Of a stretch of DNA of 64,000 nucleotides, positions 3,160 to 49,265 are shown piece by piece. The position numbers were made by a program, and so were the translations under genes. Below the pieces are notes generated by a model that was not told where the DNA came from, searched no databases, and was given only the letters and a program-made list of their open reading frames with translations. The stretch lies in the NCBI RefSeq assembly GCF_000499385.1, contig NW_013651995.1:1-64000 (forward strand), given 5' to 3'. The first letter of the stretch is position 1, and each line of letters begins with the position of its first letter. The DNA is from Eimeria necatrix. Lineage: Eukaryota; Apicomplexa; Conoidasida; Eucoccidiorida; Eimeriidae.

Positions 3160-5519
3160 TGGTTGCGGGGTGCGTCTGTTATTGTCTGTTTTCCGGAGTT
3201 GGCTCTTGTGCGCCGCTGCTGCGAGTGGCCCCGGGCCGAGCAGCCCTGGCTGGGTGAGTTCTTGCCGAAGTGGAAGGGCTGCAAAGGATTTGGACTTGTC
3301 TTTTTTCTTCAGAGAGTTGTGGGACAAGACCGGGCGGTGAAGGCGGTGGCCGACGCGCTGGCCATCCAGCGCGCGGGGCTGAGTCCGAAGAACAAGCCGC
3401 TGGGCACTTTCCTGTTCCTGGGGTCTTCGGGTGAGTGGTGGGCTGGAGCTGAGTGGAAAGTGTGGAAAGTGGTCTTCTGCGCATTCTTTTAACAACTTTT
3501 CTGGAATATTTCAATGCATTTCAAAGAATTCCCTGCATTTAAACCAAAGTTTAACACGAAGGGGCCTTCAAAACGCAAAATGGAAAAAATGCGAATCGGC
3601 GGCGGGCGCGCAAGTCGCGCCTGTGCAACTTGGGGTGTACATACACCCGAGCCGCCGCCGCGGAAAGCGCGCCAGAAAGCGCGGAAAACGATCTGCATTT
3701 GTTTGGCAGTTATTGAAATGATAAAAGTAATGATAAAAGTAATGATAAAGTAGCATTAGTGAGGCGTTTAGCTGCAGAAATGCTGCGTTTGGGTCGCGTT
3801 TCAGGGGTGGGGAAGACGGAGCTGGCCAAGGCCGTGGCCGAGGAAATGTTCGACTCCGACAAAAACTTAATTAGACTCGACATGGTGGAGTACCAAGAAG
3901 CCCACAGCATCTCGCGGCTGATTGGCCCGCCGCCGGGGTACATGGGCAACGACGAGGGCGGGCAGCTCACGGAAGCTGTCCGCCAAAAGCCGCACAGTGT
4001 TGTGTTATTTGACGAAGTCGAAAACGCCCACAAGAACTTGTGGTCTTTGCTGCTGCCGGTGGGCCTTTGCGGGCTTTGCTCGGCCCAGGCGCTGCAGGCC
4101 AAGGCCGCAGCCATTAGAAGGGAATCTTTGTTTGCTTTTTTCATGTTTTTGCAACTTTAAAGCATGTGTATATGTACTATATTTATTTATTTATTATTTG
4201 TTTATATATGTATATATATATATATATTTATTTATTTATTTGCTTATTTATTCTTTATTTAAGAATGTATATATATATATTATGTTTGCTATATTTGTAT
4301 GTATATACGATATGTATGCGCATAAGTACGAATTCAAGTTTGCTGTCGTTATAATGTAAAGTAACATCCTTGAACATATATAAATGTATATATATATTTA
4401 TATATTTATATATTTATATATTTATATATTTATATATTTATATATTTATATATTTATATATTTATATATTTATATATATTATATAATATATATTTGTATA
4501 TATTTCTACATATATTACAAAAATGTATATTTGCATTGACGAGGACTCTGGCGTTGGCGTAGAAGAGGGGAGGGGGTGACGAGAGGCAGCCGGAAGTTGA
4601 GTTTTGAATTTGAGTGAATGTGCATTGAAGTCTGTCGTTATTTTCCCAAGTAATATATTTTAAAATGCATTTTTATAAATAAACATTTTGTTATTATATA
4701 AATGCATTTTAAAATGCATTTTTATAAATAAACATTTTGTTATTATATAAATGCATTTTAAAATGCATTTATATAAATAAACATTCTGCTTTCTTTGAGT
4801 TCGAGCGCGTTGGCGTGAAGGGGCGGGAGGATCAGTTGGAGTTGAACTTGAATTGGAATTTGATTTGAATTTGAATTTGATTTCGATTTGAATTTGAATT
4901 TGATTTATATTTGAATTTGAATTTGATTGTTATTTGAATTTGAATTTGATTTTTATATGAATTTGAATTTGAACTTGAATCTGAATTTGAACTTGAACTG
5001 GTGGTTTCTGTGGGCTACGCAGATGCTGGACGAGGGTCACTTGTCGGACTCGAAGGGAAACCGAGTGGACTTCACGAATTGTTTGATTATTTTGACTTCC
5101 AACATTGGCCAGCAGTACATTTTGGACAGTTACAAAGAAGTGCGGGCGCTGACGGCGGTCAACGAGAAGGACAAGGCCAGCAGCAACGGCAGCAGCAGCA
5201 GCAGCGGCGAAGAGCCCGGGAAGTCTTCTTTCAAAGGAACTGGCAAATCTCCCAAAGACATTCTCCGCAGAATGCGCCAGAAGGTGTTGAAGGAGGTCTT
5301 CGGCTACTTCAAGCCCCAGGTCATCGGCAGGATGAGCGAGATCATCGTGAGTCGCTGCCGGACTTCTTCGACGAACTCCTCAATTTAATCCCCAATTAAA
5401 TAATTAGTTTTTCAGTTTGTTTTCCAGTTTCAATTCGAGCCAGCAACGCCTCGAAAGCGGCAGCTCGCTGCTCGTTTCCCTCGAACCCCCGGGCGCCCTG
5501 ACGCCTCTGGCCACGAAAC

Positions 5520-5554
<35 letters not shown>

Positions 5555-7046
5555 CCCCAGACTGTTTGTTTGTCTTTGCATTTGCGGTCAAAAGGACCAA
5601 CTTTGTTTCTCCAGGAGGTTAACTGCAGCAAAGGGTTTGTTGCTGCGCTGCGCAGATCTTCGAGCCTCTGGGGGAAACCGCCATGAAGGGGGTTTTGAAC
5701 TTGAAACTTTCCGCGCTGCGGAACAGCTTAGCAGCAAAAGGAATTGACTTCAAAGTGGCGGACTCCGCGCTGGGCTACATCTTGGAAAGGGCCTGGTCGC
5801 ACAAGTTCGGGGGGCGCAGGATGGCCAAGTGAGGCTTGAGGGTTTAGGGTTTGCTGCACTGGGGGTTCGGGACTCGGCCTCTCGAGGGTTTAGGGTTTAG
5901 GGTTTGCAGCGCTGGGCTCTTAGTTAGCGCAGGGTTTAGGGTTTGCAACACTTCGCGTTCAGGACTTGCATTTCGAGGGTTTAGGGTTTGCAACACTTGG
6001 CTGTTCAGGACTTCGCCTGCGCAGGGTTTAGGGTTTGCAGGGCTTAGCCTGTGCAGGACTTGGGCTGTGCAGGGTTTAGGGTTTGAAAGACGTAGTGTGG
6101 GACTTAGCCTGTGCAGGGTTTAGGGTTTGAAGAACTTCGCCTTTTTAGGGTTTAGGGTTGGAAGGATGTGCAGGACTTAACAGTCCCCGTGCTGTTGTCT
6201 TGGGCTCTCCGCAGTGGCAGCTGTGAGAAGCCAGAAAGCTGCTGCAGTAGCTGCTGCATTGCTGCTGCGCTGCTGCTGCGCTGCTGCTGCGCTGCTGCTG
6301 CGCTGCTGCTGCAGGTACCTCGAGAAGTACATAAAGCCGCGAGTGGCGCCGCTGCTGATCTCCGGCAAACTCAAGTCGGGAGACAGAGCCGTCTTGGCGC
6401 GTTCCAACACAAACCCGAATCAGCTGAACTTGATTGTGAGGCTTCACTGTTTTCTTGTTCATGTTTTTCTTTCTTTTCGCATTTTCTTTCGCTCTCGCGC
6501 TCCCTTTTTGTTTTATCTTTTCGAGTTTGTGGAGAAGGCTTTTTCTTTTCAATACTATTCCTATTAGCGCTCTTATTCCTCGGCTGTTTGTTCACATCTG
6601 CCTGTCTTCGTCACTTGCCGCGGCCGTGTGAATCCGTTCATGTGGGCAGTGTGGAGCGCCGGCTCAGCTGCGTTCTGTCTAGTTTTTAATTTCATTTAAG
6701 TTTTTAATTTGAAATATTTGTTCATTCGGACATTTCTTTTCTGTTTGCCTCTGCTGCTCGCTGCTCAACTGTCTGCTTGCGAGGGCGCGCCATGCATGGC
6801 TGCCGCCGAATGAGCGGAATGAGGGGGGAATTGGCAGAGAATGGAGTGAATAATGGCTTAAATAATTCGCAATTGAACAGAGAATTTAATGCTCGACAGT
6901 TTCCGCTATTGTTTCGGCTGTTTCAGGTCTGCGAGCTGAACGAAGAAGGCGTTTGCAAGCCCGGAACGAAGTACGGCACGAAGCTGGTCACGCAGGAAGT
7001 GAAGCCGCAGGACGGAAACGAAGACGAAGAAGACGCAATGGACTAA
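216..7046 (+). CDS. clpB: HSP101/ClpB-type AAA+ disaggregase, 5' incomplete
   Basis: This is a hexameric AAA+ chaperone that threads aggregated proteins. Exons in consistent phase: 216-466, 940-1055, 1294-1529, 1865-1924, 2511-2642, 3313-3430, 3805-4058, 5023-5346, 5656-5828, 6315-6435, 6927-7046 (about 635 aa). Visible parts are the NBD1 Walker B ([16 protein letters not shown]), [31 protein letters not shown], the WTGIPMGKM linker, the NBD2 Walker A GSSGVGKT (interrupted by intron 6), Walker [13 protein letters not shown], the Arg-finger region [10 protein letters not shown] and sensor-2 GGRRMAKYLEK. The N-domain and NBD1 Walker A lie left of the window. The end, NEDEEDAMD, is acidic like the TPR-binding tail of cytosolic Hsp104. 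The middle domain looks shortened. Exon 8 carries a poly-Ser insertion. Introns are packed with CTG, TA and telomere-like repeats. Family assignment is secure; the subtype (cytosolic versus organellar) is inferred from the tail. Confidence 0.93.
1064..1280 (+). repeat. CTG tract followed by CAG tract in HSP101 intron 2
   Basis: A (CTG)n run at about 1064-1113 is followed by three GGTGCATCTTGCTGCT-like units and then a (CAG)n run at about 1243-1278. The two runs are complementary and could pair in the transcript within intron 2 (1056-1293). Confidence 0.8.
1747..1845 (+). repeat. TTTA/ATCT microsatellite in HSP101 intron 3
   Basis: ATCT-type units pass into a long (TTTA)n run, ending just before the acceptor of the exon at 1865. 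No coding potential. Confidence 0.8.
2206..2478 (+). repeat. AT-rich degenerate tandem repeat in HSP101 intron 4
   Basis: Repeated variants of AATTTGAACTTAATAATTTG and TCATTAATTTGAAC fill the 3' half of intron 4, up to the acceptor before 2511. Confidence 0.8.
2660..3020 (+). repeat. TATATTGTATAT microsatellite and GCATGCAT run, HSP101 intron 5
   Basis: Variable TATATTATATATGTTG and TATATTGTAT units run to about 2995. They are followed by a short alternating GCATGCATGCAT run at about 2997-3020. Open frames rich in Tyr/Ile here are products of the repeat. Confidence 0.85.
3105..3156 (+). repeat. CTG tract in HSP101 intron 5
   Basis: About sixteen uninterrupted CTG units lie between the TA-rich block and the exon at 3313. 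Confidence 0.9.
4368..4480 (+). repeat. TATATTTA microsatellite in HSP101 intron 7
   Basis: A run of TATATATTTATATATTTATA units. The whole of intron 7 (4059-5022) is low-complexity AT-rich sequence. Confidence 0.85.
4653..4790 (+). repeat. 49-bp tandem repeat in HSP101 intron 7
   Basis: The word TAAAATGCAT recurs at 4661, 4710 and 4759, giving a 49-bp period and nearly three copies. Each copy contains TTTATAAATAAACATT. It is followed at 4840-4995 by a GAATTTGAATTTGATTT-type array. Confidence 0.85.
5838..6160 (+). repeat. 46-bp minisatellite with telomere-like core, HSP101 intron 9
   Basis: The core AGGGTTTAGGGTTTG recurs at about 5838, 5884, 5931, 5976, 6022, 6069 and 6114, with a shorter last unit at about 6145. 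Spacing is 45-47 bp. Each core is followed by a degenerate spacer resembling CAACACTTCGCGTTCAGGAC. It lies wholly in the intron between 5828 and 6315. Confidence 0.88.
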
Positions 7047-8408: not shown

Positions 8409-8443
8409 TAGGGTTTAGGGTTTAGGGTTTAGGGTTTAGGGTT
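8409..8443 (+). repeat. Interstitial telomere-like repeat
   Basis: About five TTTAGGG units lie in intergenic sequence, G-rich on the plus strand as at 1-79. This supports dispersed internal copies. Confidence 0.92.
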
Positions 8444-8594
8444 TGGCTGCCAGCACTGAGACTCAAAGGGTGCGGTAACTCTTCATAGTGACGCAGCAGA
8501 GTAGCAGCAAATGAGTTAGTCCGCAGTGCAGCAGCTTTTCTTTTTGCTGCAGCAACCTGCTGCCCTTCTAATCTGACGTACAAGTGCTGCTGCC

Positions 8595-12148: not shown

Positions 12149-12233
12149 CTCCGCATGCATGCATGCATGCATGCATGCAGAGGTGCTGCCCTCTAGCTAG
12201 CCCGGCTGCATGCGCATGCGCATGCGCATGCAG
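12149..12233. repeat. GCATGCAT and GCATGCGC alternating runs
   Basis: (GCAT)n at about 12153-12180 and (GCATGC)n at about 12208-12233 are alternating purine-pyrimidine and fully self-complementary. TGCATGCA is also a known coccidian promoter word, but the tandem context suggests a microsatellite. Confidence 0.8.
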
Positions 12234-12820
12234 CCCCAGGTGTAGACAAATGTAGAAAATAAAGTGCTGCAAATGCCTTTTTTTCTCTTTTAGTTTTCCA
12301 CTTTTAGTGCAAAGTGTAGAAGAAGAAGCGCCGGAGAGGCGGAGTGCCTTTTGCTGCAGATTTTGGCCTTTGAGTGCAGCTGCTTTTGAAGAGTTTCGCT
12401 GCTGAATTATTTGTTCGTTTTTAATTCCTTTATTCGTTTTTAATTCATTTGTTTATTTATAATGCATTTATTTATAATTCATTTGTTCATTTATAATTCA
12501 TTCATTTATAATTCATGCGCATGCGCATGCGCATGCAGCCCCAGGTGTAGACAAATGTAGAAAATAAAGTGCTGCAAATGCCTTTTTTTCTCTTTTAGTT
12601 TTCCACTTTTAGTGCAAAGTGTAGAAGAAGAAGCGCCGGAGAGGCGGAGTGCCTTTTGCTGCAGATTTTGGCCTTTGAGTGCAGCTGCTTTTGAAGAGTT
12701 TCGCTGCTGAATTATTTGTTCGTTTTTAATTCCTTTATTCGTTTTTAATTCATTTGTTTATTTATAATGCATTTATTTATAATTCATTTGTTCATTTATA
12801 ATTCATTCATTTATAATTCA
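12209..12820. repeat. Two tandem copies of a 305-bp unit
   Basis: The segment starting at the GCATGC run and continuing with CAGCCCCAGGTGTAGAC at 12231 recurs with the same order at 12536, including the AGAAGAAGCGCCGGAGAGGC stretch. The offset is 305 bp and I saw no difference, pointing to a recent duplication. Confidence 0.88.
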
Positions 12821-13215
12821 TCTTTTTTAATTCATTTATTTATTCATAATTCCTTTATTCATTTGTAATTCCTTTATCACTTATAATTCCTTTATTCACT
12901 CGAAATTCATTTATTCATTTGCAATTCCTTTATTCATTTGTAATTCCTTTATTCATTTGTAATTCCTTTATCACTTATAATTCCTTTATTCATTTGTAAT
13001 TCCTTTATCACTTATAATTCCTTTATTCACTTATAATTCCTTTATTCATTTGCAATTCCTTTATTCATTTGTAATTCCTTTATCAATTTGCAATTCCTTT
13101 ATCAATTTGCAATTCCTTTATTCATTTGTAATTCCTTTATCAATTTGCAATTCCTTTATCAATTTGCAATTCCTTTATCAATTTGCAATTCCTTTATTCA
13201 TTTGTTATGTTCATT
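12821..13215. repeat. TTTATTCATTTGTAATTCC minisatellite
   Basis: A long array of 18-20-bp variants such as TTCCTTTATTCATTTGTAA and TTTATCACTTATAATTCC. Intergenic, no coding potential. Confidence 0.88.
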
Positions 13216-14612: not shown

Positions 14613-17600
14613 AATGACTGGTCTGGCGCTGGCTTTCTGCGGAATCCTACCTGGGTTGAATCAAGCAACGATCTGAAGTGGCAGGATGCCAAGGGCTTTG
14701 AATTAGCGATCTCAGCCGCCAATCCGAAACAAAAAAAGCCGATTGGCATGCTGAAAAAAGACAAACATATGTTTAGCGAATTGGATCACTGCGAACAAAA
14801 AGAAAAGAGGCGAAAGCTTGGCCAGTGGCAAACCCACACACAGGACACAGCAGAAAGCCGCACAGCAGAGCGACGCAAATTTAAAGAAGAACACAAATTT
14901 GGCAGTGTTTACTTCGGAACATTTGACAGTGTTTACGTGGGACACATTTGAAATGACCCTTGATCTTGCCTTTGGCACCCGACTTGTGGACAAGCTGGAT
15001 TTGATGTTCGTGAGTGAGGAGCTGTTTCCCTGCAGACGTGTCATGCACTCCCCACCAGCAGGCGTCAACTTCATTCAAAGATCATTTTCTCCCTTCTTTA
15101 CTACCTTTGACATCTTCCTGTATAATTTAGTGAATAGGGGCCTCTGCCGTTCACAAAAGCTCTCAACAATGGGCGAAAAACGACGAAAACGCTTATAGTT
15201 GAAGAGTGACGGAATGAATATTACTCGCCATTAGTGGGGCAGGACACTGGCCACTAGGTACTCTAGTCTGTTTGAAACAAAAAGGGTTATATGGTAGATT
15301 ACTCAGAAACACGTGCAGTGCCATCGGTGGAGCCTCATATCCTTATTGCAAAGAGCAGAAGCTGCTTGCCTGCATTCCTGTTCAATGTCTTTCTCGAAGT
15401 TGAAAGAATTGCTACATTAATTTTAGGGCGCTTTTAGTCTCAACCTCGCGCTATGGCCTCCAATGTCACAAGAACAGATGCGCGGCACAGCAATTCGAAT
15501 GCGCTCACGCCGTATTTAGCTTTATTCAAACGCTTCGTGTTCTCCATGTAGATCGTCCTTTGTTTCAGAGGCTAAAACGTCATAATGAACAAGCATTGCA
15601 GTTTTCACCTCGCTGCAGCTCTGTACACAGAGCCATTTGCCACCGCGAGAGCTCAAAGGACGGACAAAGGCAAGGAGAAACGTCGCTGCCTGTGGTCAGC
15701 CTCAGCCATGAGCGTCACACAACGAACGGCTGCCAGAAATAACGGCACTGCAACTGCTCAGCAACTCCAGCAATTACGATGAAGCTATGAACGCGAATTT
15801 GTCTTGGAGTTTCTTCCCTGGCACCCTTGTCTGCTGGGCCTTTGCAGGATGAGAAGTGACATGGAGCCATCGTTGAAACAGCTACAATATCCTTATCCGA
15901 ACAGCCTAAACGTGGCTGTGCGCGGTGGGGAACAGTCACCACTGTCACCTCGAGCAGGCACCCCTGGAAAGAAATAAGCACTGTTAGTTTGCTGACGTGA
16001 TATGAATCGCGATGCTTGCTGAACGCGGTGAACAGTGGTGGCACTGACCTTACCGATGCTACTCAGATGATTCAACATTTTTGAAGGAATATGTGGTTCA
16101 AATGAAGGCAGTCCTGACTAGCACATAGCTTACTGGCTGCCTGCAAGATTTCGCCTATCTCGTCGCCGTAATCGCAGTAGAATCAGCGATCTAAATGCAG
16201 TATTGCCCTGCCATCTTGAATCTTGGTCTAAACCACACTCTACAGCGGCGCTCTTCTGCATCCGCTCCTTCTCAAGGAGGAATTTCGGAAAGCTTCCTTT
16301 TCTATGGCTTGTGAGGACTCTCGTGTTTTTAAGATTCCCTTGAAAGGCACTGTATTTGTGCGGGTAAGTCACTGAGCAGATACTACAATGCTCATGAATG
16401 ATCTCCTCTCAGATGAAAAGTATATGTCTGAGGACTCGTAAATTTCACTGTGGGCAAGATTTTGTGCAGGAAAGTGAAGAAGCAGTAGACATTCCTGTTG
16501 TGACATGCACGGTTTTGGGCCTGGAAATCTAGTTGTACATGGTACAGAAGGTGATTCTGGGCTTCATCACACAGGGATGGGCGCGTTGTTGCAGGAAGAT
16601 TCAGTACTGCAGGGCTGGGCGCTACAGGTTTCAGTGGTGGCTGCCTCAGTAGCGGTCCAGCGAATGATGCTGTTCTGATTGCTAAGCGTGGGACAAATCA
16701 GCCCTTTGACCTTTCACTTGCCAGGCTTCACCCATCATGAAGAGCGCCAGCAAGACGTTTTCTTGCTTGCAAGCTTCCCAGTATCTCGGCACTAACCAAA
16801 ACAGTGGACGGTGACTAAATGCCAAGTCATCGCTGTGGGGTGTATCTGCCGTTAGGACTCCTGCTGCTGCATCTGAATTTGGAATTTATTTTTGCTGAAT
16901 CTTAAAAAATAAGCATCCCATAGCTTCGCTTAATTGCTGCACATCGCCCGCGCATCTTGGAACCTGCATATGAGAACCAGGTAACAAGCCAAATATTCGG
17001 GCTCCTGCCGATCCTGTTGGGCTTCTTATGTCTAGTTCCAAGACCAAGACAGAGGTACACAAAAGCACAAAAGTCGCCGCCTCGCAATGAGTTTCTGCGC
17101 CTGAAGCACTGGAAGATAATGTTCGCGCGCACTATAAACTACAATTTGAATGGGCGCGAGAATTGAATGCGAGTTCCGTCTCAGTGTCACGAAAAGCTCC
17201 ACTGGTTGTCTTTTTCTGTTTCCCCAGAATGTCATTCGGAGAAAAAAAATGAATCTAAGCAGCGGATGAAAACTATAAGATCAATAGATCAAAAGATCTT
17301 GTTTTGTCTTTCGACTGACTGACCAAATGCTTTCACAAAGTCGCAACGCGTTTTAGAAACGTACTATATCGGATTTGCCTACCATACAGAATGGAACAAA
17401 TCAATCACCAAACGGAGGCCAAAAAGTGAAATGCCTGATTTATATATTCTCATCGTCCCCTTCTATTTCATTACAAAAAGGATTTTATTAAAACAAGACG
17501 AGAAGGCTCGCTGCAGTTGCTTGCATATTCGAATGATTCGCAGTGAAAGAGCGATTGTCCGGTTACAGGAAATCAAAATCGTTTCCATTAAAAGCAAATC

Positions 17601-17742: not shown

Positions 17743-20648
17743 TTATGCACGGCCTCCTCTCAGGTGGGAAGTGAGTGCTTCGGCTTCATTAGGCTTCAAT
17801 ATGGGGAGAATCCTGTATAGGAAAGAGACGAAGCAGTCGATGGTGGTAGTGATGGTGATTTTACAAGGTTCCGGCTCTGGGACGCTGGTTGTGCATTGTC
17901 TAGAAGATGGCAGCGTGGTGGTCGGTTCGGTAGTCGATGCATGGGTGCTGCACGATCCAGTGCTGGACGCTTCGGTGCTAGATGCTTCCGTGCTAGATGC
18001 TCCGGTGCTGGACGATCCAGTGCTGGACGCTTCGGTGCTAGATGCTTCCGTGCTAGATGCTCCGGTGCTGGACGCTTCGGTGCTGGACGCCTCGGTGCTG
18101 GACGCTTCGGTGCTGGACGCTTCGGTGCTGGACGCTTCTGTGCTGGACGCTTCGGTGCTAGATGCTCCGGTGCTGGACGCTTCGGTACTCGACGCTTCGG
18201 TGCTAGATGCTCCGGTGCTGGACGCTTCGGTACTCGACGCTTCAGTTGAAGATGCTTCAGTTGAAGATGCTTCAGTTGAAGATGCTTCAGTTGAAGATGC
18301 TTCAGTAGATGAGGCTTCAGTTGAAGATGCTTCAGTTGAAGATGCTTCAGTTGAAGATGCTTCAGTAGATGAGGCTTCAGTAGATGAGGCTTCAGTAGAT
18401 GAGGCTTCAGTAGATGAGGCTTCAGTAGATGAGGCTTCAGTAGAGGAGGCTTCAGTAGAGGAGGCTTCAGTAGAGGAGGCTTCAGTAGAGGAGGCTTCAG
18501 TAGAGGAGGCTTCAGTAGATGAGGCTTCAGTTGAAGATGCTTCAGTTGAAGATGCTTCAGTTGAAGATGCCTCTGTTGAAGATGCTTCAGTTGAAGATGC
18601 CTCAGTTGAAGATGCCTCAGTTGAAGACGCTTCAGTTGAAGACGCTTCAGTTGAAGATGCCTCAGTTGAAGATGCCTCAGTTGAAGATGCCTCAGTTGAA
18701 GATGCCTCAGTTGAAGATGCCTCAGTTGAAGATGCCCCAGTTGAAGATGCCTCAGTTGAAGATCCCTCTGTTGAAGATCCCTCTGTTGAAGATCCCTCTG
18801 TTGAAGATCCCTCAGTTGAGGAGGCTTCAGTTGAAGATCCCTCAGTAGAGGAGGCTTCAGTAGAGGAGGCTTCAGTAGAGGAGGCTTCAGTAGAAGAGGC
18901 TTCAGTAGAGGAGGCTTCAGTAGAGGAGGCTTCAGTAGATGAGGCTTCAGTGGACGAAGCTTCAGTGGACGAAGCTTCAGTGGACGAAGCCTCAGTGGAT
19001 GAGGCTTCAGTGGATGAAGCTTCTGTAGAAGATGCCTCAGTCGAAGATGCTTCGGTCGAAGATGCTTCAGTCGAAGATGCTTCGGTCGAAGATGCTTCAG
19101 TCGAGGATGCTTCAGTCGAAGATGCCTCAGTTGAAGACCCTTCAGTTGAAGACCCTTCAGTTGAAGATGCCTCAGTCGAAGATGCCTCAGTTGAAGATCC
19201 CTCCGTTGAAGATGCCTCAGTTGAAGATGCCCCAGTTGAAGATGCCTCAGTTGAAGATGCCTCAGTTGAAGATCCCTCAGTTGAAGATCCCCCAGTTGAA
19301 GATGCCTCAGTTGAAGATGCCTCTGTTGAGGATGCCTCAGTTGAGGATGCCTCGGTAGATGATGCCTCAGTTGAAGACGCCTCAGTTGAGGATGCCTCAG
19401 TTGAAGATCCCTCAGTTGAAGATCCCTCAGTTGAAGATCCCTCAGTTGAAGACGCCTCAGTTGAAGATGCCTCTGTTGAGGATGCCTCAGTTGAGGATGC
19501 CTCGGTAGATGATGCCTCAGTTGAAGACGCCTCAGTTGAAGATCCCTCAGTTGAAGATCCCTCAGTTGAAGATCCCTCAGTTGAGGATGCCTCTGTTGAG
19601 GATGCCTCGGTAGAAGATGCCTCAGTCGAGGAGGCTTCAGTAGAAGATGCCTCAGTTGAAGATCCTTCAGTAGAAGATCCTTCAGTAGAAGATGCCTCAG
19701 TGGAAGATGCCTCTGTCGAAGACGCCTCAGTCGAAGATGCCTGAGTTGAAGATGCTTCAGTAGAGGATGCTTCAGTTGAAGATGCCTCAGTCGAAGATGC
19801 CTCAGTTGAAGATGCCTCAGTCGAGGATGCCTCAGTCGAAGACGCCTCAGTCGAAGACGCCTCAGTCGAAGACGCCTCGGTAGAAGATGCCTCAGTTGAA
19901 GATGCCTCAGTTGAAGATGCCTCAGTTGAAGATGCCTCAGTTGAAGATGCCTCAGTTGAAGATGCCTCAGTTGAAGATGCCTCGGTGGAAGATGCCTCAG
20001 TTGAAGATGCCTCAGTTGAAGATGCCTCGGTGGAAGATGCCTCAGTTGAAGATCCCTCAGTTGAAGATCCCTCAGTTGAAGATCCCTCAGTTGAAGATGC
20101 CTCAGTTGAAGACGCCTCAGTTGAAGATGCCTCAGTTGAAGATGCCTCAGTTGAAGATGCCTGAGTTGTGCTTGGCTCAGTTGTACTTGGCTCAGTTGAA
20201 ACTGCTTCCGTTGTGGACGGTTCCGTAACAGGGGCAGATGTCGTTGTGCTGGTGTAGCATGCGCTGCAGCAGAAAGCTGTGTATCCCCTTTCACAGAGGA
20301 ACCTGCGGAGAGCAGCCTCTAGTTCTTCTTTTGGGACTTCCTGTTTTTCTTCGAGAAAATCAGTAATATCTTCCAAGAGGCCAGGGCTTTCACGGATCAC
20401 GGGGTATCTCGCGTCCAGACCAGGGAAAATCGCCAGTATTTGCTGTAAATCAACTTCTCTGCGGGGAGCAGCTCCTTTGGCCGACATGGCACAAGAATCC
20501 TGCGCCCAGAGAAGGGCTACACCTGAGAAAGGAAAGCATACGGGTATTGCCGAAAAATTACGGAACTCAACCTCAACCGGAGAAAAGTGGAGTGCTTACC
20601 GAGCAGAATCGGAGCTGAACATCTCCGAAGGGAAGAGAGGATCGTCAT
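17743..20648 (-). CDS. Secreted Ser/Thr/Glu pentapeptide-repeat protein
   Basis: Two exons: 20600-20648 and 17743-20522, with a 77-nt intron in phase 1; 942 aa. Exon 1 plus the start of exon 2 gives a classical signal peptide (MTILSSLRRCSAP, then ILLGVALLWAQDSCA), invisible if the in-exon Met at 20487 is taken as start. An acidic, probably helical N-terminal domain (about residues 30-95) ends in a Cys cluster (FCCSACY). Then come about 145-150 copies of the pentad (A/G)SSTE, encoded by a 15-bp repeat, and a short Cys-containing C-terminal domain ending SHLRGGRA. No GPI signal or membrane segment is evident. The Ser/Thr density suggests heavy O-glycosylation, so a mucin-like surface, secretory-organelle or wall protein is plausible. 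No homologous family was recognised, and the function is unknown. Confidence 0.85.
17955..20170 (-). repeat. 15-bp coding minisatellite ((A/G)SSTE)n
   Basis: About 2.2 kb of 15-bp units. Neighbouring units share synonymous codon variants in blocks, for example a GACGCTTCGGTGCTG class on the plus strand at 17960-18240 and a GTTGAAGATGCCTCA class elsewhere. This indicates local homogenisation by slippage or unequal exchange. Confidence 0.95.
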
Positions 20649-38392: not shown

Positions 38393-40200
38393 GTCCCTTG
38401 ACGCCTGCGTGCCACTGGAGGCACAGTACGCGCACCAGCAACACCATTAGAGTCATAAGCAGTAAAGACACATGCTGTTTCGCTGCAACTTATGCGCTGC
38501 TGCCCGCGCCCGCTTCGCCGTCGAGTCTACTGTACTCACTGGGGGCCCCTGCAGTGCCCCTGCCCTCAACTGCTCAATGCGCACATAAAGACGCTACCCT
38601 ATGAGTTAATACTGCAATATAGTTCAAAAAACACGAAAAGGAATCAAACCAACTAATGCTGGGTAGCCGGGCAGGAACGGACAATCAAAGAGCGTGGGGC
38701 CCTCATAAGCTGGGGGGCCCCCAAACCCAGTGGTCATGTGGGGGGTAGCGCTTCTAGGTTGATCGCCAGCAAACAGAGTCTAAGCAGGCAAATGAATCCG
38801 TTATTTCACATTTAGCAATAATGTTATATATAAAGGATTGTCTTCGCTACCGTATTGAGCTTGGCAAAAGCAGCGGCGTCGAGACAATGCACGCACTGCC
38901 TGCGCAGCGGCGATGAGCGCTGATGCAGTTTTGTAGTATACATGAAATTGCCACTCTAGTTGTTTCTAGAGGAATCAATAGTATTCCTTTCTTCTACTTG
39001 TATCGTGTCTCGGGGTTCCAGTTGTATTCAATTTTGTTGTGCCGAAAGCAGCAGCAGCAGTAGCAGTAGCCGTTGCTGCAGCCGCTGCGCCGACCACTGC
39101 GGTGTTGCTAGTCTGCTTGCAGCGACTCACCCCTATTACCTGAGGCCCTTTTGACGTATACTTGTGACTGTTTTCCCGAATTTATTATACTACTTTGTCT
39201 GCGTATTCGTGCAACACACTGCGAGCGGTGGGCAGCTGCTTCCATCGTACGGTGCTTGCGCTGCTGCTGCTGCTGCAGCAGGTGCTGCTATAGAAGCCAG
39301 CAGCAGCGCAGGCTTTCTTTAATAAGCGTGGTTTTCATTTTCACATTATCTTGCCTATTTTTGTTTATTTATCTCTCGGTGAACAGACCGCACTGTCCTC
39401 CGGCCTCATCGCGGCCCAAGCCGCGCCTCCTGCTGGTTCAGACCACCAGCAGCGGCAGCACCGGCGGCTGAGCGGAAGCAGCAACAGCGAGCCATACACC
39501 AACAGCAGGAATCTGATTTTTCGTCTCACTTAGTAATTGTCCCTTTGTGGTGAACGCACATTTGTTGGTGTGAGCGCAGCAGTAGCAACTGCAGTGGCAG
39601 CAGCAGGCCAAAGCAGCAGCGGAAGCAGCAGGGGAGACATCACCGAAAGCACGGCCACAGCTGTCGGTTAGCTCGCAGTTGCGCATTTGCTGTCATTCTG
39701 ATGGCCCCACAAGCCTCAAAAACAGTAGTAGGGGCTCTGCCCTACAGCTTCCGCTGCGTTTAGAGCAGCAAAACTAGCTGCTGCAGCACAGCTTTTGCAC
39801 AGCTGCTGCAGACAGCGCATATCTGCAGTGGCATCGACCGACTCTTGCCTAGTGAACCTGCTGCAAACAGCACACGGCTACAGCACGTGCTGCTACAGAG
39901 TTGGTCAAGGGCCCTCCGCTCTCCTGTCGGAAGCAGCCGCGGCCCTGTCTGTGCCGGGGCTCTATAGCACGGACAGCACATTAAGTATCCTTAAGGAGCG
40001 GCTGCAGCAGCAGCTGCCGCAGCAGGAGAAGCAGCATCCGGGGCACAACCAGCATTTGCTCGACATTTTTAGCGCTGCCTCTCAGGCTCTCAGGGCCAAT
40101 AAGGAATTTTTCTCGCGACTGCAAGACAGCTCCACCTGCTGCAGCAGCAGTAACGGCTGAAGCAGCTGTTGCTGCTGCTGCAGCAACTGTTCGTCGCAAT
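38393..40200. other. Divergent interval between FIG4 and sorting nexin genes
   Basis: About 1.8 kb. It contains short CAG tracts (about 39043-39075, 39255-39310, 39570-39640). A plus-strand open stretch at 39795-40160 includes KERLQQQLPQQEKQHPGH and looks helical, but no junction to the downstream gene was found. The promoters of both flanking genes should be here. Confidence 0.5.
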
Positions 40201-40798
40201 ATGGGTAGGCAGGCCGCAGGTTCTCGGACCAGCAACAACAAGCAACGTGCAAATGCTGCTGCGGCGGCTGCCGCTCTGGCGGCTGCCTCGGCGCAGGCTG
40301 CTGCGGCTGCAGCTAGCGTGAACACCCCACAGTCGCCTTCGCAACAACAGCAGCAACAGCAGCAGCAGCCAGCAGCAACATGCGGGGGCTCAGGGGCGGC
40401 AGTGGGCAGCAGCGACGGGGAAACCGCCACAGCGGAACAGACAGTGAGTGCTTCGCCGGCTGATGAGTCGGCGAGTGCGCAGCAGCAGCAGCAGCAGCAG
40501 CAGAAGCCACCGGACAGTCTTAGGACTGAGGCCCTCGTGACCCACAATGTGGCCCCATTGGCGCCATCTGCGAACGCGACAAATGGGGCTGAGATCGCAG
40601 CATCAGCAGCAGCGGCGGCGACCACGGAGTCAGCTCAGGCAGCTGCTGCTGTGGAGGAACCCGTCAGGTTTGGCTTCCGGGAGCGCTTCAGCAGCGCAGT
40701 TTCTGGGGCGCGGAGTGGCCTGGGATTTTCATCGCTATGCAGCGGCAGGCCGCTGCAGCAACAGCAAGAGCAACAGCTATTGCAACAGCAGCAGCAGG

Positions 40799-40829
<31 letters not shown>

Positions 40830-43310
40830 GCTCGAGCTGGAACAGGTGGAGCAGGAGCAAGAGCAAAAGCCGCTGTCGAACTCTCGAGAGCCGTCCCTTA
40901 GCAGTGATGGGGATGTTATTGACTCTTTTACGCTACTGCACACAGATTCCAGTCATACGCTGTCACATTGTGCAGCAGCAGCAGCAACGGCAGCAGTGGT
41001 AGGTGCTTGCCATCCTTTGAAGCCGCGCAGCTGTGGCCGCCAGGACTGCCCGCATGTAGCGCACGGCTCTGCTGCTGCTGCTTCTGCTGCGGCAGAAGGG
41101 CTCGCCTGCGTAGCTCCTCGTAGTGCATCTGCTGCTGACCCATTTGGAGACCAGACAGATGCAGTCCTGCTGCCAGAGGAGGCATCAGGAGGTGTTCCTC
41201 GGCATCGAGGTCGTGCCGTTTGCTGCTGTTGCAGCATCGGCAACAGCACCACAAGCAGCAGCAGTACGAGCACTAGCAGCAGCAGCAGCTTCAGTGCCAC
41301 TGCGCAGAGCGCACAGCAGATGCTGTGTGAGGACTGTTGCTGCTGCTGCTGCGGCGACTTCCTGAAACAGCTGCTGCAGGGCTCCTTCTGGGGCGGCAGC
41401 TGCGCAGCAGAGCGGATGCGTCGTCGCATAGAGCTGCGGGTGACGGAGGCTGTGAGCAGCAGCAGCAGCAGCAGCAGTAGTACCAACAGCTTTGTAGTTG
41501 TTGGATCATCGTTGTGGTCTCGAGGGCCTCTGTATGCCGTCACCGGAACTGCCGAGGGCGTGGGGCCCTTTGCAGTGCGACGGCGACACGCGGACTTCCA
41601 GTGGCTACAACAGCAGCTGCAACAGCTGCTGCCAGGAGTGTTCATCCCGCCCCTGCCTAAGAAGCAGGGGCTCACCTGTCGCGACGACGCAGAGACAGCA
41701 GCAGACAGAAGGCAAGGCCTCTGCATGTTTCTCACGAGAGTCCTGAACAGGCCACACCTCGCGAATACTTCTGTTGTAAGAGCGTGGCTCGAGGTGGCAC
41801 CCTACGGCAGCAGCAACAGCAGCAGCAACGGCAGCAACAGCAGCGATGCATCGTTCTCCGTTGAAGCTTTGAAGCAACGCAAGCAGCACATGACGGAGCT
41901 TCAGCGAATAGAGGAAGAGCTAGCTGAGTACAAGCGCATGTTTGTCGATGAGCTGTCAGCAGCAGCAGCTGCTGCTGCTGCTTCTGCACCTAGTGCAGCT
42001 GCAGCAACTGCAGCATCACAACCGTCTTCAGCGTCCTCTTCGCCTGCTTCATGGGGCTCAGATTCTGCATCACCAAGTGCACCAGCAGCAGCTGCAGCAG
42101 CTGCTGCTGGTGCAGATGCAGGTCCCCGCATGGCTGCGAGTAAAGCCCTAGTGACACACCACCATCAGTTTCTGACGATGCTGCGCGGGCATTTGCGGCG
42201 CATCTGTAAGCTGCAGCAAGAACAGCAAGGGAGCATTGAAGCTCTGCAAGCCGTGTTGCTAGACCACAGGCTAGAGGACCCGCTGCAGCAGCTGCACCAG
42301 CCTTTGTTGCTGCAACAGCAACAGCAACAGCAGCAGCAGCAGCAGCAGCTGCAGCAGCCTCTGCTTCGTCCAATCGCCAGTAATGGTCCCGTGCCTACAT
42401 CGCGGGGTGTCGTGGCGTTTCAGCAGCAGCGGCCTCTCCGCGGCACCATGGGCAATGGACCTATCGCTGCGTCGCGGGGCATTACGGGGCTTCAGCAGTC
42501 GATGCATCAGCTGCAAATTGATGCCCGGGAGAATGATGTTCTCTCCAACTTGAGGAGCTCTCCGCAGCTGCAGCAAGAAGTTCAGTTCTCCGGGGAAAGC
42601 AGCACTGGCCCTACAGCGACAGCCCCCGCTAATTCTTACCGGCATCAGCAGCAGCAACAGCAGTTTCAGCAGCAGCAGCTGCTGCGGCAGCAAGGCTTCA
42701 CAATTTCTGGTAGCGACGCTCTGCAGGATTTGTCATCTGCGTTGTTTTTCTGTGGTCTGTTGTGTCAGCGTCAGTCTCGGCAGCAGCACCTGGATTTGCT
42801 GCTTGCTGCTGTTAATCGCGGGATAGAAGATAGTGATGCCATGATTAATGCTTTCAACTATGTGGAGCAACTACAGCAGCAGCAGCAGCAGCTAGCAGCG
42901 GCAACAGCCAAGCTGCAGGTAGAGCTGGCCGCATTGCGGAGATCCCCTCGGGGCTGCTGGCTGCAGACTCACTTGCGGTGGAAAGACAAAGCGGCCCAGG
43001 TCGGGGAGCAGCAGCAGCGTCTGCAGCAGCAGAAGATGCTATTGCAGCCGCTGCAGCAGCAGGTTGCGCTGGCGCAGCAAGTCCTTGTGTACGTAGAAGC
43101 CCCTGCGTGGGCAGCCATGCGATCTGAGGCTCTTGGAGCCTCAGTGTACGCATTCTTAACAGCAAGGCATTCTTTAGAGAGAAGAAGTGAGGCTTTATGG
43201 GAGGCGTTTTGTTCTCATGCAGCTCGCTTCCACTGCCAGCAGCAGCAGCTGCACCTGCATCCGCAGCAACCCCTCCAGCCGCAGCAGCCGCAGCAGCCGC
43301 AGCAGCCGCC

Positions 43311-43346
<36 letters not shown>

Positions 43347-43386
43347 CCCCAAGCCACAGCAGGACGCTGGGGAAAACAACACCTGA
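40201..43386 (+). CDS. PX-domain sorting nexin (PX-BAR-like)
   Basis: Sorting nexins bind endosomal PI3P and bend membranes during sorting. A single uninterrupted frame encodes 1061 aa. Residues 1-415 are low complexity (Ala, Gln, Ser runs). The PX domain lies at about 418-540: GPFAVRRRHADFQWLQQQL with the phosphoinositide-binding Arg, PGVFIPPLPKKQ as the PPK loop, ADRRQGLCMFLTRVLNRPHL, and SVVRAWLEV. A long helical region follows (about 555-1045; ELQRIEEELAEYKRMF, QFLTMLRGHLRRICKLQQEQ, DLSSALFFCGLLCQRQSRQQ, NAFNYVEQLQQQQ), consistent with a BAR domain interrupted by poly-Gln/Ala. The frame remains open a little upstream of the ATG, so an earlier start or 5' exon is possible. PX is confident; BAR is inferred from helix pattern and position. 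Confidence 0.85.
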
Positions 43387-44296: not shown

Positions 44297-47200
44297 TCAC
44301 TGCTTGGGAGCACCTCTAACATTTATTCCGGGAATCTGCACGTTGCAACGAGCCCTAGCCCTTGCTGCTGCTTCGGTAGCTGTCTCAAGGAAGAGCGCAT
44401 CAACTCCGTCAGCTGTCTCAGCACATGCTGCGTAGAAGCGAGCCCCTGCTGCTGCTGCTGCCTCCTTTCCTGCTGCAACGCCGGCTTTCGCTGCAGCAGA
44501 GCCGTCGGCCTTAGCGGCGACTAGAACAAGGAGTGCATCACCTGTTGCAACGAAGCACGTTACACAGGTCTTTTAGTATATAGCCAGTTGCATGTGGAAG
44601 TACTGATTGGCTGTGGTTATCAGCAGCAATACGGCTTGCGCCGCCGTTGCTCCTAGTGCCTCTGCTGCTGCAGCGGACACTACTGCTGCTGCGGCTGTCC
44701 ATTTTGTTAGATGTTCTTGAATGCTGTCTAGAGACGCAACTAAGCAAGCAACATAAGCTGGCCTCTCCCTTGGATGGGCCAGTGCTATTCATTTGTTTTG
44801 TCAAGTTGAACAAGTGGAGAGAGTGCCGTGAATGAGAACTAGCGGAAATTGTGAAGCAAGTGATGCACTGTTAGGCTCTCAAGCATAATTCTAAAGAGTG
44901 CAGTCACCTGTTTGTCCTTTGGCTTGCTGCAATGTCTCAAGCGCAGCAGTAAGGGAAGCTGGGTCCGTTGAGTCGAAGACCATGAGCAGCAGATCAGCTC
45001 CTTCGAAGGCTCCTTTGATTGCCTCGGCAAACACTGGCTCCCCGGATAAGTCCACGAAGTGCAGCCGCACCGTTTCTTTGGTAGGCAGCACCACGTCTCT
45101 CAAGCCAAAGTCATAGGCTATTGTGCGGGGGCCCATAGCTCCCCCTCTCGCGCCCCTTTCCCGGAGGGAAACCCCGGCGAATCGCCGCTCACAGAAGCGC
45201 CGCACCAAGCAGCTCTTGCCGCTTGCTGGGGGCCCCGCAGTCACCACTTTCAGTCTAAGAGGCATCGGCATGTCCAGAACCTTCCACCTTCGCTGGGGCA
45301 CAGGAATGACTGGGATCTGTGGCCTGATGCTGCTGAGGCTGCTCCTGCTGCTGCTGCCCAATGTACTGTTCCCGCTGCGGCAAATAGATTCGCGGGCAGC
45401 ATTAATGGGTGCAATAACTCCAAGTGGGAGTGGGGGGACGCGCGAGCGAGCGTCTTGCTTCTGCTGATCACTCATGGTGCACGGAGATTCAGCTTTATAG
45501 ATGCCTCCTGTTTCAGTCTGTCCCACTGCAGCTGCTGCCGTAGCTGCCGTAGCTATTGTTGCTGCTCCAACTGCCCCTCTCACTGCGATTTCTTCAGATA
45601 TGGGCCTGTCATTCGGCTTGGTGGCTGCTGAAGCTATTTTCTCTGATGAAATTGCAGCAGTTGCTGATGATCCTGATTCTGCTATGGTTGTCACTTCTGC
45701 CGCTGCTGCCACCCCTAATGCGGCTGATCCACTTGATATTGCTACTGCCTCTGCCGTTGGAGGGCTCTTTTTCTTTTCACAAAAGGTGCCGTTGCGACCC
45801 TCAGCTTCGCATTCTGGAGCACCGAGTTCCTTCGACATGGCAGCAACAGCAGCAGCAGCAACTGTTACAGCAGCAGTGCCGGCAGTTGCAGAAGGGGGAG
45901 CATAAATCGCTAGAGAGTCAGCATTAGCAGCAGCTATTGCGAGTGAAGCAAAAGAAAAGCCGGAATGTTCCTGAACTGTCATTGGGGTTTCGTTCTCTTG
46001 AGAGTCCTCAAGATCCTCTTCCCCTGAACCCTGCGTCGGCTCCGCCGGCCTTGAAGACTCGTTGCAAAGTGACTCTGAATCAACAGTGCCCCCAGGCAAG
46101 GGAGAGCTAACGGAAGTTGCTCCAGCTGAGCTATAAACACCAGCTTTTGCAGCTGCAGCTGCTGCCACTGCTGCGGCTGCATTTGCTGCAGCTGCTGCAG
46201 CCTGTGCTGCTGCAGAGGAGGCCAGCGGGGAGTCTGGTCGTCGTGCTGCAGCTGCAGCCGCTGCCTCTGCTGCTGCAGAGGCTGCAGCTTGTGCCAATTC
46301 ACCTGCGCATGTAGAAAATCTTTGCGTTGTAAGCATGCTCCAGCAAGAGACGGGAAGCCTTGAGGCACCAGGGACCCCTGAGGCTGATACAGGAGACCCT
46401 TTGGTTCCATATCGGTTTTGTTGGGTCTGGGCCATTTGCAGCAGTTTGTGTTCTTGAACTGGGTGAGACCACGAGGACTCCCTTTTCGGTCCCTGCAAGG
46501 ATTTCTTCCTGTGCTGCAGCAGATCTGCAGCGCTGGATCTGTGCAGTATGCTGGTCCCACGGGCTGCCAGCAGCTCTGACTCGAAGGCCCCTCCAGCTGG
46601 AGCTGCTGGGCCAGCTGGGGCCCTTGAAGTCCCTGGGCGCACTTGCTGTGGCCCTCCTAACTCCGAATAAGAGGACAGGGGCCTGGCTGAGCTCTTCAAA
46701 GGGAGCTGCCCAGCGGGCACTTTGCTGGGCTGTTTGGCTTGTCCTCTGTAGTCCATAAACTCTCGTGAATTGCGCTTGCTGAAGCTACTGCGTAGGGACT
46801 CGTGCGTGGCGCTGAGGGCCTCTGTGTAGCTGCTCGACGGTTTGTAGTGCTGCTGAAGAAGCGCTTGAGACCACAACTTCCCTGAGAATTCAGCGCCAAA
46901 GACGTCAGGTAACTCCTCTTCTTCCCACGCAGCAGTTTGGAGGTCTTTCTGCCTATCTGTGTAGAAGCTGCGACACGTGGAAGACGACAGGAGGCGGCCT
47001 GTTGATGGTGATCCACTGGGACTTATAGAAGCTGAGTCTGGATTCCCTGGAATGAAGGTGCCTTTTGTTTCCTTCTCTCCTATTTTTCTGTCTAAACTTG
47101 ACCGGGGGGCTCCGGAAGACGGTGGAATTCGGCGGAAGGTACGGCGGTTGTGTGAGGAGATGTCCCAAAACATTTCAACCGGTTGGGGAAGATGTGCCAT
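44297..47200 (-). CDS. Divergent RBJ/DNAJC27-like small GTPase with long N-terminal extension
   Basis: Exons 44908-47200 and 44297-44541 (phase 1 junction); 845 aa. About 640 N-terminal residues are Ser/Ala/Pro-rich and probably disordered. The Ras-like fold follows: LRLKVVTAGPPASGKSCL (P-loop, GxxxxGKS), VRRFCERRF, TIAYDFGL, G3 as VDLSGEP with no catalytic Gln, and ADLLLMVFDSTDPASLTAAL. Exon 2 has ALLVLVAAKADG, where G4 is AKAD and not NKxD, then ARFYAACAETADGVDALFLE (G5 region). The Cys-Glu-(K/R)-Arg-Phe block and the DxxGxP-type G3 resemble RBJ (RJL) GTPases. No J domain is encoded here. The altered G3/G4 suggest weak or atypical nucleotide binding. The family call is inference from motifs. 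Confidence 0.78.
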
Positions 47201-49265
47201 CTTTCTTGTCTCCTCTTTTTACTTCCGTCGTCACTGCTTCTGGAGCAGCAACGAAGATGACTTTCCCCAGGGTTTTAGAGCTGCTTTGTGCAGGCCTTTT
47301 GCCTCAGCTCTTCGCTTACGGGCTTTGACGCCGGCGCAAGCAACCCCGCGTTCCCTAGGCCTAATTTGCAATGCATTCCGCGCCTTGGGCAAAGTAAACA
47401 TCAATTCTTGAGCCTCAAGTCGAGGGTATGCCTTCCCGTTTCCAAATGCTACTTGAGTGGTCAACGTTACAAGTGCTGTTTGTTCTGCCACTGAATAAAG
47501 AGGGTCAAGGAAGGTCCCACAGGCAGATCTACGGTACCGGGGAGAGGCACACAGAGTGAGCTGGTTGGCTTTGTCTTGACTGAGCACCGTTCCTGTTAAC
47601 CACCTAGGGTAAAGGAACTGATATTTGAATTGAAGGGGACTTCTGTCGTAGAAAGTTGGCTCAAGGGGAGCGTGCGACGTGCCAGTGTACTCTCCTGTCT
47701 TTTGGTCTTCCTCCTATGAGCTTATACTTCTTGTTACACTTCTCTAGAGCGTTTGTATCTGTCAGTGCAGGACTACTTAAGAACCAATGGAAGGACAACT
47801 TGGGAAGCAGCTACTATCGCGAGGCCAAGGACTGCTGCTCGCAACGAAAATCTCATTTGCTTGTGACTATACTATGTAAGAATGGATTCTTGAAGCATCA
47901 ATTTATGCGAAATCTGGGTTTTACTGGATATTTTTAGTCAGTGCCAAACAAGCAGTTGGGAAGTGACCTTTTGTAAAAGCATCCCCAATGGGGCTATTCG
48001 TGTGCCAACCGGGACGCAGCTTTTATGTTTATCCTATAATTGTAGCATCGAAGACATTTTCTTAAGAAGCCCTTCACCTACGTTTACTAACTAGGTTCGT
48101 CAGCGTTGGCAAAAGTAGGCGCTGCCGCACCGCGAAAAGAGCGAGAGCCACAGGACGCCCCCTGCCACCGAGCATAGGCTTCGCTGCATAATCACAACAC
48201 TGAGTCATTATTCAGAGCATGTTACCTCGAGTGATTCAGAAGTGAACTGAATATAATAGTGGTTCAAAGTGTTGCTGCCGTCTACGTGAAAGCGCCTACG
48301 GTGCTCATTGCCACTACTGCAACTGCGTTGTAGGAGGTTGAAAGGCACGGAAATGCGTTGAGGAAACAAAAATTTACTCGAATAATAGCTAGAAAGCTGG
48401 TAATACTTTGTGGGTGAAATAAAATCTGGCTGGATCACGCATCAAACAGCAGAGCCTCCATTATGGAGGTGATCGCTGGTGTTCTAACACCTGCAGCTGA
48501 GTCTGTCTCACGTACTAATTCACGCTAAACACTTAAACAAAAAGCAGGTGCTTAATGAGGAACAATGAGCTGGCGTAAATGGTACGTGAAGCAGTACTCG
48601 TTGCTCCGCGTTGCTGGTCGACCGCCTAGCTCGGCGGAACCTCGGTTCCCCGTGCAAAAGAAATTACACGGAACAAACCTCGGTTTCCCGAGCAAAATAT
48701 TGCAGAAGAGCTGGCACAGCCTTCAATAATGAGGGGAAGGTTTCGGAGCAGTCGGAGGGGGAGAGCTACTCAGATGACACTATGAAACTGGAACATTACC
48801 AGCCGTAGGAGAATCTTTGCTGTGGAAGCCACAAATTACTTCCACCGGAGTAAACTGCCGCTGTATCGCCCTTGGGGTGCGAATTATAGATTAATTCCTC
48901 CATCCTACCGATAGATAGTTCAGGTGTATGCGCAGCTGTGGAAATGCCGGAAGGCGCTGGAGGCAACGGCCCTTCTACCGGCTGTGTGATGGCCTCCTCC
49001 TTGGCACTCTGAGCAAATACTTTCACTGCCGCTATATTTATGTAGATCCGCAAGATAAGAGTAATGGGACGGACATCCAGGAGGGCAAGAGATGCGGCTT
49101 TATAGGTTTTTCCCTGCGTGGTTGGCCTTGGAGGCAACGTTCCTTCTAAGCATTTGTCGTGGGGATGAGCCCGGAGAATGTTGCATTCCACTTGAAGGTA
49201 CTTTGTATTCTTCAAGTGTGTGAGGTTTTCACCTAAACGTGTTCCCTTTCATTTCCGGATTCCAG
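47201..49265. other. Interval without a supported gene
   Basis: About 2 kb upstream of the GTPase gene (minus) and of the micro-exon gene (plus). Plain, non-repetitive sequence. An ATG at about 48565 opens a 54-codon frame (MSWRKWYVKQYSLLRVAG) that might be a first exon for the downstream gene. No junction was proven. Confidence 0.45.

Follow-up and report, generated by a model that had tools for sequence, protein, structure and literature searches.

A 147-unit pentapeptide array in an eimeriid genome points to a probable two-exon gene for a predicted secreted, possibly mucin-like protein

In the 64,000-nucleotide stretch of DNA analysed here (the window; positions 1-64000 in a contig of 88,556 bases), a 15-nt unit is repeated 147 times on the minus strand, raising the question of whether this array encodes a protein and, if it does, what sort of protein that may be. 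An open frame alone is not evidence of coding in such a setting, because any 15-nt repeat leaves several frames open; an antisense ORF of 657 aa and another minus-strand frame of 832 aa also run over the array. The units themselves are more informative. Comparison among them gives a pN/pS of 0.14 in the proposed frame; the remaining sense frames give 5.2 and 2.4, and the three antisense frames 4.7, 0.21, and 5.0. The antisense frame at 0.21, which is the least favourable comparison and the sole competitor, scores worse than 0.14, and its value is low because its third codon positions coincide with the third positions of the sense frame. Across all 147 units, the codons for Ser at repeat residue 2 and Thr at residue 4 are unchanged in their first two positions, and residue 3 is Ser in 147/147, being encoded by TCN in 128 units and by AGY in 19. 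From this unit-to-unit codon variation it follows that the proposed frame is coding, and the array is under protein-level constraint in that frame.

Translated, the array runs without a register break through 116 ASSTE, 21 GSSTE, eight ASSTG, one ASSTQ, and one SSSTG units. The predicted 942-aa protein is 33.5% Ser, 18.6% Thr, and 16.5% Glu; 491 of its residues are Ser or Thr, 442 of them in the array, and a pI of 4.05 was computed on the part from Met29. A previous account of this locus, drawn from the DNA letters alone (the sequence-only reading), had described a Ser/Thr-saturated, strongly acidic product, and these figures bear it out.

The proposed gene (Table 1) extends beyond the long frame. 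Taken on its own from 20487, that frame encodes 914 aa, starting at the only in-frame ATG of exon 2 (Met29), and no other ATG occurs from there up to the next upstream stop. Joining exon 1 adds MTILSSLRRCSAPILLGVALLWAQDSCA in frame, across an intron with a GTAAGC donor and a pyrimidine-rich acceptor (TTTCTCAG), and the hydrophobic maximum of the N-terminus is then 2.62 versus 1.75 for a protein starting at Met29, on the simple hydropathy score of our own by which the signal peptide was judged. The small Cys-bearing end domains of the sequence-only reading are also present, with four Cys at the N-terminal domain and four in the C-terminal part. On the features of the sequence, the locus is a genuine gene, probably of two exons.

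Table 1. Predicted features of the repeat-protein gene and of its downstream relic (window coordinates)
Feature	Position	Strand	Description	Basis
Exon 1 (candidate)	20600-20648	-	49 nt; ATG at 20648 (AAAATG context) and first part of the putative signal peptide	Sequence
Intron (candidate)	20523-20599	-	77 nt, GT-AG, GTAAGC...TTTCCTTTCTCAG	Sequence
Exon 2	17743-20522	-	Long; stop codon included	
N-terminal domain	20248-20487	-	Residues 29-108 of 942; 4 Cys; predicted helical	
Ser/Thr/Pro linker	20161-20247	-	Runs into the array	Sequence
Repeat array	17956-20160	-	147 in-register 15-nt units, mostly (A/G)SST(E/G)	
C-terminal linker and Cys-bearing end	17746-17955	-	4 Cys, 3 of these in the last 55 residues	
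Relic	16375-16644	-	Frameshifted, decayed relic of the gene's 3' end	Protein and DNA alignment, randomisation test

Single-sequence structure models predict that both ends are helical, the N-terminal domain with a mean pLDDT of 71.3 (88 residues folded) and the last 55 residues as two helices with a pLDDT of 70.6; a fold search with the N-terminal model gave no match. No membrane anchor was seen after Met29, where the best 19-residue hydropathy is 1.47, in the C-terminal domain and ending 17 residues before the C-terminus. Thus, the protein is probably either soluble or part of a matrix. Likewise, no GPI-type hydrophobic signal is present at the C-terminus, which ends LTSHLRGGRA, and lacking a transmembrane or GPI-type tail the protein would require another tether to be placed at the surface; a surface or wall location is conjectural.

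By analogy with known apicomplexan proteins, a mucin-like O-GalNAc glycoprotein is the reading that we favour, and two features of that class are found in silico, namely a signal peptide and a Ser/Thr-rich tandem repeat domain of 147 units. The signal peptide would direct entry into the secretory pathway, where ppGalNAc-transferases of the Golgi would act on the Ser and Thr hydroxyls of the 147 SST cores. Modified in this way, the array may form a long rod, stiff, hydrated, and acidic, with a small, helical, Cys-bearing end, perhaps disulfide-bonded, on either side; these ends could bind a partner or fix the protein in the matrix of a wall or surface. That the locus is a genuine, probably two-exon eimeriid gene for a secreted, soluble mucin-like protein, with this mechanism taken in its entirety, is a proposal towards which we lean with modest confidence.

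A candidate enzyme is at hand, since the genome encodes a ppGalNAc-T-like protein (GT2 match, 7.5e-21). Its best PDB match is 8uhv (E 9.4e-61), the other 15 among the matches listed being named GalNAc-transferases, and 8UHV is one of the Toxoplasma gondii GalNAc-T3 deposits (PMC11074326). Dense modification of such an array has a precedent in Cryptosporidium parvum Gp40, whose 17-Ser array is reported as saturated or nearly so with O-GalNAc (PMC5549699). The frame encoding the ppGalNAc-T-like protein (L021 562-2112, minus strand) has long homopolymer runs within or beside the catalytic domain.

Two properties of the array weigh against O-glycosylation of this kind. Acidic neighbours may disfavour some ppGalNAc-Ts, and Glu follows Thr in 137 of the 147 units; besides, typical mucin domains contain Pro, and the absence of any Pro from the array speaks against the mucin reading. 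The acidic residues are central to the main rival account, according to which the protein is secreted, phospho-acidic, and unglycosylated, the array serving as a polyanionic, cation-binding matrix component. Its 942 residues hold 138 S-x-E motifs, the secretory casein-kinase type, most array units having S-T-E, and the retention of Glu in all but ten units is in keeping with it. A search for Fam20C found no match in the same genome, but it likewise found none in 14/14 control genomes and so does not demonstrate that the kinase is missing. We consider this account unlikely.

The 147 units comprise 48 distinct 15-mers, 37 of which encode ASSTE while differing at up to 7 of 15 bases. Identical units adjoin in 43 of 146 neighbouring pairs, whereas 500 shuffles gave 7.6 such pairs on average and never more than 17; neighbouring units differ on average at 1.53 of 15 bases versus 3.42 when shuffled (SD 0.11). 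On a larger scale, the 120-nt block at 19456-19575 is repeated at 19306-19425, 150 nt apart, with two mismatches. Local unit turnover is real, and the blocks of synonymous variants and active turnover noted in the sequence-only reading hold up. As the unit pattern shows, the gene evolves under selection for the peptide while its 15-nt units slip and are exchanged unequally. In the single assembly examined, this pattern makes allele-length variation likely.

A relic of the gene's 3' end lies 1.1 kb downstream on the same strand, the one unexpected addition to the earlier account. The protein match to the C-terminal domain is weak (E 0.089). At the DNA level, gene and relic share 61% identity over 277 columns, from the last repeat units to just beyond the stop codon, with an E of 7e-14 (match/mismatch 1/-1; 12.5-kb subject set); the stricter 2/-3 scoring recovers short pieces only, the best at E 0.008. 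The alignment score of 145.5 stands against a null mean of 58.2 (z 9.1) and is reached by 0/100 randomised sequences. Gaps are required to align the two: five of a single base, one of four bases, and another of three. One frame of the relic holds sequence matching the array end and, past two adjacent stops, sequence matching the Cys-Thr-Thr linker; what corresponds to the last helix is found in a different frame, which is open through the entire relic (101 aa) and stops at the matching place. The gene once had a tandem copy, at least a partial one, which is now decayed. The relic is probably a pseudogene of that tandem paralogue, as its alignment suggests, with a rebuilt last exon as the alternative that the 101-aa open frame offers.

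Nothing else of the copy was recovered in its vicinity. Neither a matching array nor an N-terminal domain was found beside the relic; the score of the downstream search for an N-terminal-domain relic was equalled by 2/100 randomised sequences, and in the search near the relic for a counterpart of exon 1, the intron, and upstream sequence, 11/100 scored as high. Three further placements were at chance level, with 72, 30, and 94 of 100 randomised sequences as high, and tblastn across the window with the array masked gave no further convincing match among the matches listed. The N-terminal part, from which the sequence-only reading had hoped to trace paralogues, retrieved only itself from its own genome at E up to 10, in a search in which one candidate passed the first-look filter and distant copies could be missed; the paralogue that did come to light is the decayed C-terminal copy. 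That search covered an assembly of 44,016,600 bases in 1,148 contigs, within which a search for a second array returned 13 matches, all inside this gene.

Such dynamics would also be expected of a secreted immunodominant decoy or antigen, whose repetitive epitopes would soak up antibody and whose array length would vary by strain. The observed repeat turnover agrees with this account, and the decayed paralogue and the lack of recovered relatives would fit rapid birth and death; the peptide, however, is constrained rather than diversified, as its low pN/pS indicates, and we find the account improbable. Near-neutral expansion in a dispensable gene, whose protein, if made, would have no repeat-dependent role, has the decay of the neighbouring copy in its favour, together with CAG-driven homopolymer repeats in Eimeria, which are reported to look near neutral (PMC4287421). 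Under neutrality, though, the amino acids would not be expected to persist while the nucleotide units diversified into 48 distinct forms, nor would Ser be expected to survive exchanges between TCN and AGY, and the array unit is not CAG-based; such an origin seems very unlikely.

Whether the favoured product enters the secretory pathway depends on the signal exon, for which a null was built, after the exon had been proposed, by keeping exon 2 and swapping the upstream 601 nt for 20,000 random segments from the whole window, with no requirement placed on the acceptor. A GTAAG donor yielded an in-frame ATG exon in 3.5% of segments and a hydrophobic core at least equal to the real one in 0.3%; the proportions were 9.75% and 1.1% for GTRAG and 41% and 4.8% for GTA, all to be read with the core lying partly within exon 2 and hence being common to null and real sequences. 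The 49-nt first exon restoring a signal peptide, as the sequence-only reading had it, is exact in its coordinates, and on these sequence grounds the exon is likely real. The least probable alternative, a transcription start within exon 2 yielding a cytosolic protein from its sole in-frame ATG, would discard the upstream hydrophobic stretch that fits a signal peptide with exon 1 and is so seldom matched with the same donor, and would leave the Cys-bearing ends outside the secretory pathway that they appear to suit.

Known systems resemble the proposed secreted mucin-like protein in kind and differ from it in architecture, as far as comparison by description allows. CST1 of the T. gondii cyst wall is likewise a secreted apicomplexan protein, whose mucin domain carries tandem Thr/Ser-rich units that are O-GalNAc targets, and the likeness extends to the T. 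gondii enzyme best matched in the PDB by the present genome's ppGalNAc-T-like protein; CST1, however, combines 13 SRS domains with 20 Thr-rich repeats (PMC11074326), whereas the present protein has 147 short acidic units and no Pfam match at its ends. C. parvum Gp40/Gp15 and GP900 are secreted sporozoite glycoproteins rich in Ser/Thr, with the saturated Ser array of Gp40 noted above. Gp40/15 differs in having a furin site and a GPI signal (PMC5549699), whereas the present protein lacks a hydrophobic C-terminal tail, and GP900 is described as having a transmembrane domain, whereas here no anchor was seen and the unit is regular and contains Glu. Closer in lineage, the Eimeria KAZAL/mucin-like oocyst protein (ETH_00006770 / EAH_00000360) is coccidian, secreted, and endowed with a mucin-like Thr stretch; its 12 KAZAL repeats (PMC8486141) set it apart from a protein with no Pfam domain at either end. 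Eimeria SAG surface antigens are also coccidian secretory-pathway proteins with Cys, but they are described as GPI-anchored and Cys-rich, unlike the present protein, in which neither an anchor nor a Pfam match was seen.

Other coccidian classes fit no better. Neither end holds a SAG/SRS domain (0 Pfam families, E up to 10), the features of COWP and tyrosine-rich wall proteins are absent (Cys 1.1%, Tyr 0.4%, no Pfam match), and the 15-nt, five-codon unit is not a homopolymeric amino acid repeat (HAAR, CAG).

Searches for relatives agreed with the sequence-only reading, which had foreseen an undescribed protein: none were found in Pfam or the protein database with both ends, or in the PDB with the N-terminal domain. 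Neither end matched a Pfam family even when E values as high as 10 were allowed, and the best PDB sequence match to the N-terminal domain, at E 0.66, is read as chance. In the protein database, the long exon with region 1-103 found nothing at E 0.01 (199 candidates) and a shortened N+C query nothing at E 0.1 (528 candidates), in searches that covered two length classes and would miss relatives of other lengths. A neighbouring frame of 775 aa, used as a control query, retrieved two relatives (99% and 89% identity; source 'lgn', contigs of ~6 kb), and therefore the database appears to sample this lineage or a close one, although a repeat gene could be lost from contigs of that size. Genes of this type are prone to loss or misreading, as short-read assemblies break at long repeats and an exon of 49 nt can readily escape notice. 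A literature search for an SSTE repeat in Eimeria found no paper, and among titles and the beginnings of abstracts no described protein of the same kind was recognised. The protein is new in sequence, ordinary in kind, and without family assignment.

A broader proposal, which we put forward tentatively and with more doubt than conviction, is that this gene may be the founder, still surviving, of a family of secreted coccidian pentapeptide mucins that is undescribed and restricted to its lineage. Such a family, with helical Cys ends and an acidic SST core free to expand, would evolve by birth and death within a segment poor in CAG, and array length may determine how thick or how charged a wall or surface coat is, and may vary by strain. 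Were the mucin-like reading true, the protein would be a candidate for a coat or wall constituent and would offer coccidian ppGalNAc-Ts a defined substrate; as a single-locus array of 15-nt units that can change in length, the repeat would be a candidate typing marker.

The gene lies within a stretch free of listed CAG-type repeats, at ~13.4-24.7 kb. Elsewhere in the window, CAG/CTG runs and TAGGGTT heptamers are abundant. TAGGGTT arrays include (TAGGGTT)11 at the contig start (1-78) and heptamer-like or exact copies at 5927-6140 and 8409-8444. An AAA_2 exon (3717-4157, plus strand; E 6.3e-32), which we take to be ClpB/Hsp100-like, is followed by a further exon-like frame at 4927-5385, with AT-rich sequence and CAG repeats around. 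Both repeat types are likewise reported as abundant in the Eimeria falciformis genome (PMC4287421), and the organism is placed among the eimeriid coccidia. No telomere is claimed at 1-78, TAGGGTT being dispersed and among the most abundant repeats of an Eimeria genome (same source) and recurring within the window; the contig may begin there because the assembly broke at a dispersed repeat. Farther along, a 1,133-aa open frame (39985-43383, plus strand) carries a PX domain (E 6.4e-15) and long poly-Gln/Ala runs, and the 775-aa frame used as the control query (44894-47218, minus strand) carries a divergent C-terminal GTPase domain of Ras/Roc-like type. At 12209-12821, a 305-bp unit occurs twice in tandem with a 100% match, which may reflect either recent duplication or an artefact of assembly.
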